Assembly: GCF_022865125.1 (NCBI RefSeq) | Contig: NZ_CP094828.1 | Span: forward strand, 4,953,219 to 5,017,218 | DNA length: 64,000 bases | Direction of reading: 5' to 3' | Origin: Acuticoccus sp. I52.16.1 | Lineage (GTDB): Bacteria > Pseudomonadota > Alphaproteobacteria > Rhizobiales > Amorphaceae | Shown here: positions 22,296 to 25,653 of the stretch, one piece after another | How the letters are laid out: each line of letters starts with the position of its first letter | How positions within the stretch are numbered: the first letter of the stretch is position 1 | Position numbers and translations under genes: made by a program | Notes under the pieces: model-generated | Told to the model about the DNA's origin: nothing | The model's database searches: none | The model's input: the letters and a program-made list of their open reading frames with translations, nothing else

Positions 22296-22832
22296 TTAGA
22301 ACTTGCGCGCGTCGACGACCGAGCGGCTGTAGTGGTCGGGCCCATAGTCGGCCCCGGACTGCAGCGCCAGAAGCTCGGCGAGACGGGTGCGGGCACGGTT
22401 CACACGGCTCTTCACCGTGCCGACGGCGCAGCCGCAGATCTCGGCCGCCTCGTCGTAGGAGAAGCCGGAGGCACCCACCAGGATCAACGCTTCGCGCTGG
22501 TCCGCGGCCAGTTTCCCCAGCGCCTCACGGAAGTCCACCATGTCGAGATGGCCGATCTGCTCGGGATGGGTCGACAGGTTGGCGGCCATCTTGCCGTCCG
22601 CGTCTTCCACCTCGCGCCGCTTCTTGCGGAAGTCGGAATAGTAGACGTTGCGCAAGATGGTGAAGAGCCAGGCGCGCATGTTGGTGCCGGCCTCGAACAT
22701 GTCGATCGAGGCCCAGGCCTTCATCAACGCTTCCTGCACCAGATCGTCGGCCCGCTCGGCGTTGCCGCAGAGGCTGACCGCAAAGGCGCGGAGGTTGGGG
22801 ATCTGACGAATGAGCTCTTCCTTGACGCTCAT
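22296..22832 (-). CDS. ecfG: EcfG-type extracytoplasmic-function sigma factor
   Basis: The 178-residue product has sigma region 2 (NLRAFAVSLCGNAERADDLVQEALMKAW, then NMRAWLFTILRN) and region 4 (EALILVGASGFSYDEAAEICGCAVGTVKSRVNRAR). It lacks regions 1 and 3, as expected of an ECF sigma factor. The ECF15/EcfG group is inferred from its partners: nepR overlaps its start by four bases (ATGA) and phyR is divergent. EcfG directs RNA polymerase to GGAAC-N16/17-CGTT promoters of the general stress response and is held inactive by NepR. The expected target sites occur in this same locus. Confidence 0.95.
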   Translation of the reverse strand: MSVKEELIRQIPNLRAFAVSLCGNAERADDLVQEALMKAWASIDMFEAGTNMRAWLFTILRNVYYSDFRKKRREVEDADGKMAANLSTHPEQIGHLDMVDFREALGKLAADQREALILVGASGFSYDEAAEICGCAVGTVKSRVNRARTRLAELLALQSGADYGPDHYSRSVVDARKF

Positions 22833-23059
22833 TGCGGCTTCGAACCCTCGCCGTTGCCGGCGGTGGCGGCCTTGTGCTCACCGTCGTCGACGCCGGAGGG
22901 GCTGTCCCCGCCGACCTCGTCGAGCTTCAGCAACAGCTCGACCAGCTTGTCGGGGATGGGCTCGACCAACACGGAATCGTACAAACTTCGCAACTGTTTT
23001 CCAATCAGCGACTGCATGGCTTCGTCCTGGGGGGTGCCCGGCCTATCGTCTTCAGTCAT
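22829..23059 (-). CDS. nepR: Anti-sigma factor NepR
   Basis: A 76-residue protein with the NepR core IGKQLRSLYDSVLVEPIPDKLVELLLKLDE, a helix-loop-helix that binds either EcfG or phosphorylated PhyR. The C-terminal Gly/Asp-rich tail and the N-terminus are low complexity, as usual in the family. The four-base overlap with ecfG gives coupled synthesis of the sigma factor and its inhibitor. Transcription probably begins at the bidirectional EcfG promoter about 130 bases upstream, so the anti-sigma factor is under positive control of its own target. Confidence 0.93.
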   Translation of the reverse strand: MTEDDRPGTPQDEAMQSLIGKQLRSLYDSVLVEPIPDKLVELLLKLDEVGGDSPSGVDDGEHKAATAGNGEGSKPQ

Positions 23060-23143: not shown

Positions 23144-23168
23144 GGAACATTCGATTGCGACGGACGTT
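23144..23168 (+). promoter_or_regulatory. EcfG-dependent promoter P1 toward phyR
   Basis: GGAAC (23144-23148), a 16-base spacer, then CGTT (23165-23168): an exact match to the alphaproteobacterial general stress promoter. The direction is toward phyR, whose ATG is about 155 bases downstream. Confidence 0.85.
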
Positions 23169-23185
23169 AGAACGACTACCTTGTC

Positions 23186-23212
23186 GGAACGGTTTGGCCC
23201 GTCGTTCGTTCC
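23186..23212. promoter_or_regulatory. Palindromic bidirectional EcfG promoter for phyR and nepR-ecfG
   Basis: On the plus strand GGAAC (23186-23190), 16 bases, CGTT (23207-23210). On the minus strand GGAAC (23212-23208), 16 bases, CGTT (23191-23188). Each strand is an exact EcfG promoter, and the -35 of one overlaps the -10 of the other. It lies between the divergent nepR and phyR starts, so a single 27-bp element can drive both arms of the circuit. Confidence 0.85.
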
Positions 23213-23321: not shown

Positions 23322-24137
23322 ATGTCGCTTGCCAAGAAAATCGCGCCGCATATCCCTTATATGCGGCGCTTCGCTCGTTCGCTCACGGGCAGCCAACCCA
23401 GTGGGGACGCCTATGTCCAGGCCGCCCTCGAGGCACTCGTCGAAGATCCTTCCATGTTCGATGAGACCATCCCGGCGCGGGTGGCGCTCTATCGCATCCT
23501 GATCTCGATCTGGGATTCGATCGACCTCAACCACGAGACCACCGCCCGCACCGCCGTCTTCGAGAAGCGCCTCGACGCGATGGTCCCACGCGCGCGGCAG
23601 GCCTTCCTGTTGACCACGGTGGAGGGCTTCTCGCTGCAGGAAGCCGCCGCGATCCTCGATACCGACATGAACGGCGTGCGCATCCTGATCGACGAGGCGG
23701 GCCAGTCCATCGCCGAGCAGGTGGCCACGAGCGTCCTCATCATCGAAGACGAGCCGATGATCGCGATGGACCTCGAGGCGCTGGTCGAGGGGCTGGGCCA
23801 CGAGGTCGCCGGCATCGCCCGCACCCATACCGAAGCGGTGGAGGCCGTGCGCGCCCGCCGTCCCGGCCTGGTCCTGGCCGACATCCAGCTCGCCGACGGC
23901 TCCTCCGGCCTCGACGCGGTGAACGAGATCCTCGAGTCGATGACGGTGCCGGTGATCTTCATCACCGCCTACCCGGAGCGGCTTCTGACGGGCGAGCGGC
24001 CGGAGCCGGCCTTCCTCATCACCAAGCCGTTCGAGACCGACACGGTGAAGGCGGTGGTTAGCCAGGCGCTCTTCTTCCAGTCCGGCGAGAGCGAGGCGGA
24101 AGAGGACAGCGCCGGCGTTCAGCCCTCCGCGGTCTGA
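23322..24137 (+). CDS. phyR: General stress response anti-anti-sigma factor PhyR
   Basis: A 271-residue response regulator with reversed architecture. An N-terminal sigma-like domain (about 1-125, including RFARSLTGSQPSGDAYVQAAL and EGFSLQEAAAILD) precedes a receiver domain (about 137-260). The receiver has the acidic pocket E142/D143, phosphoacceptor Asp187 in VLADIQLADGS and the conserved Lys in LITKPFE. On phosphorylation the sigma-like domain is released to bind NepR, freeing EcfG. ATG 23322 is chosen over 23316 because AAGGA at 23311-23315 then has proper spacing. Two EcfG promoters lie upstream, so phyR is autoregulated. Confidence 0.96.
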   Translation: MSLAKKIAPHIPYMRRFARSLTGSQPSGDAYVQAALEALVEDPSMFDETIPARVALYRILISIWDSIDLNHETTARTAVFEKRLDAMVPRARQAFLLTTVEGFSLQEAAAILDTDMNGVRILIDEAGQSIAEQVATSVLIIEDEPMIAMDLEALVEGLGHEVAGIARTHTEAVEAVRARRPGLVLADIQLADGSSGLDAVNEILESMTVPVIFITAYPERLLTGERPEPAFLITKPFETDTVKAVVSQALFFQSGESEAEEDSAGVQPSAV

Positions 24138-25628: not shown

Positions 25629-25653
25629 GGAACCGAATTTGTCGTTTAACGTT
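25629..25653 (+). promoter_or_regulatory. EcfG-dependent promoter of the exported protein gene
   Basis: GGAAC (25629-25633), 16 bases, CGTT (25650-25653): an exact match. It reads toward the gene at 25832, giving a predicted leader of about 170 bases. It overlaps the phrB-type gene's upstream region in the opposite direction. Confidence 0.75.

Follow-up and report, generated by a model that had tools for sequence, protein, structure and literature searches.

The DNA analysed here is a stretch of 64,000 nucleotides (the window) from an Acuticoccus-like genome. It contains phyR on the plus strand and nepR-ecfG on the minus strand, which are divergently oriented and separated by an intergenic spacer of 262 bp. 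Pfam finds PhyR, NepR and the ECF sigma factor on the two sides of the element under study, and the phyR product has the domains PhyR_sigma2, PhyR_sigma-like and Response_reg. PhyR is 91% identical to that of Acuticoccus yangtzensis, the closest named genome found. The features of the locus are:

22296..22832, minus strand: ecfG, ECF sigma factor, overlapping the end of nepR (Pfam Sigma70_r2, Sigma70_r4_2)
22829..23059, minus strand: nepR, anti-sigma factor (Pfam PF18557)
23144..23168, plus strand: another exact EcfG site, directed towards phyR and 42 bp upstream of the element (motif match, two closest relatives)
23186..23212, no strand: candidate superimposed bidirectional EcfG promoter, GGAACG-N15-CGTTCC (window sequence and 8/8 genus genomes)
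23186..23190, plus strand: -35 GGAAC facing phyR, with GG kept in 8/8 genus genomes
23207..23210, plus strand: -10 CGTT facing phyR, overlapping the opposing -35; TGTT in 2/8 genus genomes
23208..23212, minus strand: -35 GGAAC facing nepR-ecfG (motif match and genus alignment)
23188..23191, minus strand: -10 CGTT facing nepR-ecfG; minus promoter at 9/9 positions in 8/8 genus genomes
23322..24137, plus strand: phyR, anti-anti-sigma response regulator (Pfam PF22029, PF22233, PF00072)

The element at 23186-23212 has the sequence GGAACGGTTTGGCCCGTCGTTCGTTCC and was described in the first-pass annotation as a 27-bp palindrome with an exact EcfG promoter on either strand, lying between phyR and nepR-ecfG. 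The position and both promoters were confirmed. Each strand reads GGAAC-N16-CGTT by motif match on the window sequence, with 3 bp shared between each -35 and the -10 of the other strand. The palindromy is confined to the 6 bp at either end, while the 15-bp core is not symmetric. The documented EcfG/SigT motif is GGAAC-N16-CGTT or GAAC-N16,17-C/GGTT in the available text of PMC3892343, PMC4287350 and PMC4814048. On both strands a -35 GGAAC and a -10 CGTT thus stand exactly within the 16-17 bp expected of an EcfG-type promoter, and they lie ahead of known EcfG targets, phyR and nepR. The ATG of phyR is 112 bp past the phyR-facing -10, and the nepR start is 129 bp past the -10 on its side, both of them plausible distances. 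Since SigT motifs are located at about -34 to -35 from the transcription start (PMC4287350, in its available part), the predicted starts are at about 23220 on the plus and 23178 on the minus strand. Between 22950 and 23400 no sigma70-type promoter was found with the E. coli consensus, a search that would not necessarily reveal an alphaproteobacterial housekeeping promoter. A hairpin at 23343-23369 in the 5' end of the phyR coding sequence was dropped because it is not kept in most relatives.

The frequency of the motif was then compared with a control, the pattern read backwards. On both strands of the whole genome, exact GGAAC-N16/17-CGTT sites occurred 40 times and the control 41 times, so that the EcfG motif is not enriched genome-wide. 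In the 262-bp spacer three exact sites were found, where 0.002 were expected (Poisson P ~1e-9). The genome has one further copy of the palindrome GGAACG-N15-CGTTCC, ~650 kb away, and three places in all when N16 is allowed as well as N15. Other palindromes in the genome are at C1:4326536 and at C1:5059246, the latter between two frames resembling by eye a metallo-hydrolase and MazG. In the eight genus genomes, palindromes with N15 or N16 were counted 12 times against 13 for the control (forward counts, with 8 of the 13 from one genome), and the palindrome likewise is not enriched genome-wide over the reversed control. Six of these 12 sit at phyR, each in a different genome, and the remaining six have six unrelated cores.

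An exact EcfG site automatically matches 6/9 positions of a reverse site, because GGAAC and CGTT share AAC/GTT; just three more bases, a G after GGAAC and CC after CGTT, therefore complete the superposition. By base composition this is expected for ~2.5% of exact sites. The three bases were present at 12/17 exact sites of the eight Acuticoccus loci and at 4/98 exact sites of 86 divergent loci outside the genus, all four in L129 and L180. At these 98 sites, which come from loci up to L212 with Acuticoccus alone set aside, GGAAC was followed by C in 49, T in 29, G in 12 and A in 8 cases, and CC followed CGTT in 5. A narrower background, without the 17 loci that have or nearly have the superposition (8 of them Acuticoccus), gave G at 3/85 and CC at 0/85 and is too favourable because such loci were set aside. 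With ~2.5% per site and 4/98 elsewhere, a single superposition is merely mildly surprising, and what had been called striking in one instance gains its decisive evidence from conservation in the genus. This conservation and the background count (12/17 vs 4/98) rule out a chance symmetry in Acuticoccus.

All eight genus genomes contain phyR, and in each the element was found in the spacer ahead of the main phyR. The loss in close relatives that the first-pass annotation had set against its own proposal was thus not seen. All 18 box positions were matched in six genomes and 17 in two; the phyR-facing -10 is TGTT in L084 (whose locus is identical to L006) and in L086. The distance between the boxes is N16 in five genomes and N17 in three (L083, L086, L087), changing for both strands together. 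GGAACG and GTTCC are invariant in the eight-genome alignment; compared pairwise over its full length, the spacer is 64-72% identical among the three most closely related genomes and 33-45% identical in all other pairs. Bases that only one strand requires could be followed separately: the left GG, required by the plus promoter alone, and the G at position 6 and the right CC, required by the minus promoter alone, are kept in 8/8 genomes, and the right C of CGTT, required by the plus promoter alone, is kept in 6/8. In the two TGTT genomes the changed base puts an A for G in the opposing -35 at the expense of the plus -10; the arms seem to be traded off against each other at this shared base pair. 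One genus genome has a second phyR (L088), which groups with a Rhodobacterales family in the tree and has no pair of sites with 8/9 matches on both strands. With a completeness of 89% and a contamination of 3% for this genome, the second copy may stem from transfer or from contamination.

The arrangement was compared with other phyR loci in an order-level survey, in which P0001 matched 162/249 genomes and 100 further stretches were added. A PhyR start was present in 173 loci. A regular expression for nepR recognised a divergent copy in 103 of them, and 94 were classed after removal of duplicates; the 70 loci left out may include some whose divergent nepR escaped the expression. The 94 loci are mostly from the same order, but some belong to Sphingomonadales or other groups, and close relatives each count as a locus of their own. 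At a threshold of at least 8/9 per strand, two separate promoters back to back (at any distance) were the commonest arrangement with 59 loci, followed by 16 superimposed, 16 with the minus site only, 2 with the plus site only and 1 with none. The 16 superimposed loci were the 8 of Acuticoccus and 8 others, among which just L129 and L180 had 18/18 matches; these two are ambiguous because each has another minus-strand site that could form a separate pair. Superposition with 16-17/18 matches elsewhere (Rhodoblastus L025, L030 and L036; L134, L194, L212 and L223) is near chance and was not counted. The S. meliloti pSymB locus is back to back. In a class-level sampling, phyR was found in 35/193 and 40/212 genomes. 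Among 29 class-level loci, 17 were without a divergent nepR by regular expression; the other 12 comprised five back to back, four nested and three with the minus site only. Before the deeper sampling of families f63 and f78 described below, inward overlapping pairs amounted to 16/110 divergent loci, 8 of them Acuticoccus.

In a FastTree tree the Acuticoccus group (local support 99) stands beside L089, L090, L092 and L093, all with separate divergent promoters; two of these genomes are from the same family but not the genus, and two from a neighbouring family. From this position the superposition is probably derived in Acuticoccus, which seems to have fused two promoters that were formerly back to back. 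At least five changes between back-to-back and overlapping states were counted on the tree, which has several long branches flagged and was built without L113-L212 (phyR start only), duplicates and proteins of <200 aa; the R. litoralis plasmid row was relabelled 'other' by hand, its annotated spacer being without a site. As a side observation, the gap from -35 to -35 in 64 loci with back-to-back sites was 5-10 bp in 39, 28-32 bp in 14, 19 bp in 2, 39 bp in 1 and 25 bp in one, and the others were >46 bp. The phasing of the gaps at a period of 10.5 (mean resultant 0.44, 20 distinct gaps, relatives not thinned) is suggestive of a preference that reflects helical phasing.

The superposition is less isolated than the first-pass annotation thought, since overlapping pairs in another phase were found in a Rhodobacterales family, f63. 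Here a nested palindrome, GGAACCAAACG-N-CGTTTGGTTCC, forms overlapping divergent EcfG sites. In f63, phyR passed E 1e-40 in 19/41 genomes. The overlapping pair was present in 18/21 loci with an offset of 6-8 bp and at least 16/18 matches, ten of them with 18/18; it was absent from L278, L288 and L290 among the 21 loci, and also from the second copy L259. The regions upstream of phyR concerned are those of L272-L290, L228, L229 and L295-L300. The family was assigned to Rhodobacterales because PhyR of L284 is 62-75% identical to the named Gemmobacter, Dinoroseobacter and Roseobacter plasmid copies and because the promoter of D. shibae is identical to that of L280. Five of six named Rhodobacterales records had the nested pair, R. 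litoralis being without it, and in family f78 an offset of 6 was found in 5/6 loci. Dinoroseobacter shibae pDSHI02, Roseobacter ponti p1 and Gemmobacter aquarius thus resemble Acuticoccus in having overlapping divergent EcfG sites between phyR and nepR-ecfG. They differ in phase: the offset is 6-8 bp instead of 2, and the opposing -10 lies just inside the -35, whereas in Acuticoccus it lies on it.

A third exact site of the spacer, at 23144-23168 on the plus strand, had been overlooked before. It was found in the window and in the two closest relatives but in none of the remaining five genus genomes; in the three species the boxes are kept, the inner spacer has diverged and the offset is 42 bp in each. 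Its predicted start at about 23178 coincides with the predicted nepR start on the opposite strand. A fourth exact EcfG site in the window, at 25629-25653 on the plus strand, precedes a small exported-looking frame and adjoins a photolyase-like gene (both named by eye). Exact sites are found at the matching place in L003 (+2318) and L004 (+2330), and none exact at that place in L005 or L006.

From the conserved strand-specific bases, the co-variation of both spacers and the sister lineages with separate sites at this place, the element is likely to be one bidirectional EcfG promoter, a single polymerase site at which the EcfG holoenzyme binds in either orientation. It is conceivable, although rather improbable, that one strand alone works as an EcfG promoter, most likely that of nepR-ecfG, with the match on the opposite strand arising as a by-product because GGAAC and CGTT are nearly symmetric. 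The automatic 6/9 match is in line with this, as are the full symmetry at 2/86 other loci (L129, L180), the additional plus site in the window and two relatives, and the TGTT of 2/8 genomes, in which the minus strand stays at 9/9. A by-product would hardly keep the left GG, which only the plus strand needs, invariant in 8/8 genomes within an otherwise mostly diverged spacer, nor the C of the plus -10 in 6/8; moreover, 5/8 genomes have no other plus site of at least 8/9 between the nepR motif and phyR. Far less probable is a role of the palindrome as the operator of a dimeric transcription factor instead of a promoter pair. Inverted 6-bp arms with a variable core that are conserved throughout the genus would suit such an operator, but the half-sites are not at a fixed distance. 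Five genomes have 15 bp between the arms and three have 16 bp, a variation that is awkward for a rigid dimer and expected for EcfG promoters. Each arm also reads as promoter boxes, set at the distance that a promoter would have; in other loci this place holds EcfG sites, and two genomes break the symmetry of the arms (CGTT to TGTT) yet keep one promoter intact.

The upstream site gives rise to a further explanation, in which phyR is transcribed mainly from 23144-23168, the palindrome serves mainly nepR-ecfG, and the shared site has little weight in the window species. The exact plus-strand match, the boxes kept in three species over a diverged spacer and the constant 42-bp offset speak for this. 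Against it, the five genus genomes that lack the upstream site all keep the palindrome, and a polymerase bound at 23144-23168 would also cover part of the palindrome. We regard this explanation as unlikely, and it can coexist with a bidirectional reading in the rest of the genus. With a second exact site upstream, phyR need not depend solely on the shared site, and the proposal that both arms share one site is upheld by the conservation on both strands and is qualified for these three species. Taken together, the element is real and conserved, and very probably a promoter pair for one sigma factor.

As a bidirectional promoter, the element would direct a rightward EcfG polymerase into phyR and a leftward one into nepR-ecfG, and both directions would be transcribed in vivo by EcfG. 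The transcription units of phyR and nepR-ecfG are usually both EcfG-dependent (PMC4814048, PMC8103513, available parts), and for rsiA1 as well as for rsiB1, S. meliloti has a start mapped downstream of a promoter that depends on RpoE2 (PMC3616915, likewise). Since both polymerases need the same 27 bp, binding is exclusive by geometry, and a polymerase bound in one orientation would block the other. Stress frees EcfG from NepR (PMC8103513), which makes competition between the directions plausible under this condition. Under strong induction, the shared site may cap the total feedback from the locus, and the output of PhyR relative to NepR-EcfG would be tied to the intrinsic strength ratio of the orientations with no independent saturation. 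The regulatory effect would thus be a coupling and capping of the two arms. In R. sphaeroides under membrane stress, the mRNA of the sigma factor EcfG is increased and that of phyR is not, according to the available part of PMC5830050, which is compatible with an unequal use of two directions.

The S. meliloti rsiB1 / rsiA1-rpoE2 type has the same genes, sigma factor family and boxes in divergent autoregulated units; it commonly has two separate sites, whereas Acuticoccus has one superimposed site. The prokaryotic bidirectional promoters of Warman et al. (NAR 2026, PMC12825309, available part) are likewise pseudo-symmetric, with two mutually excluding polymerase orientations. The Acuticoccus sequence is pseudo-symmetric for both orientations as judged by its letters, but a shared -10 with starts beside or within it was not found. 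The E. coli type has a shared -10 and starts commonly 10, 18 or 23 bp apart, whereas here the -35 and -10 overlap reciprocally, the predicted starts are separated by ~42 bp and one arm encodes the sigma factor, which belongs to the ECF type. The element may therefore work like these promoters but stands outside their class. For E. coli, the same text states polymerase exclusion, reports competition at five tested promoters solely at high activity and little at weak ones, and finds lower noise where transcription is constrained. The mutually exclusive firing that had been proposed is therefore to be expected at best per binding event, as the two polymerase sites coincide and a polymerase bound in one orientation should keep out the other. 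Both orientations may be individually weak, since a G after GGAAC is uncommon elsewhere (12/98).

Geometrically, the element is a variation both on bidirectional promoters and on divergent EcfG promoters as they are already known. A partial literature search, covering titles, the opening of abstracts and selected passages, found no description of superimposed or nested EcfG promoters, which is weak evidence of novelty; none appears in the available parts of PMC4814048, PMC7083833, PMC6599016, PMC4287350, PMC5830050, PMC3616915, PMC3892343 and PMC8103513. It is possible, and we put it forward tentatively, that the shared polymerase site is a selected control device of the stress response that arose separately, by superposition in Acuticoccus and by nesting in Rhodobacterales and a further family. 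The synthesis of PhyR would then compete with that of NepR-EcfG, which would fix their ratio and limit self-amplification at high induction.

In alphaproteobacteria, the general stress response works as a partner switch, in which three proteins are made from two divergent self-activating units. If a single polymerase site serves both units, the activator would be in direct competition with the sigma/anti-sigma pair at the DNA. If true, this would be an extra layer of feedback that is missing from descriptions with two independent promoters. The natural variants in related species, back to back, superimposed and nested, are a ready-made comparative series, which bears on how promoter overlap relates to the ratio of PhyR to NepR-EcfG and to the noise of the response.
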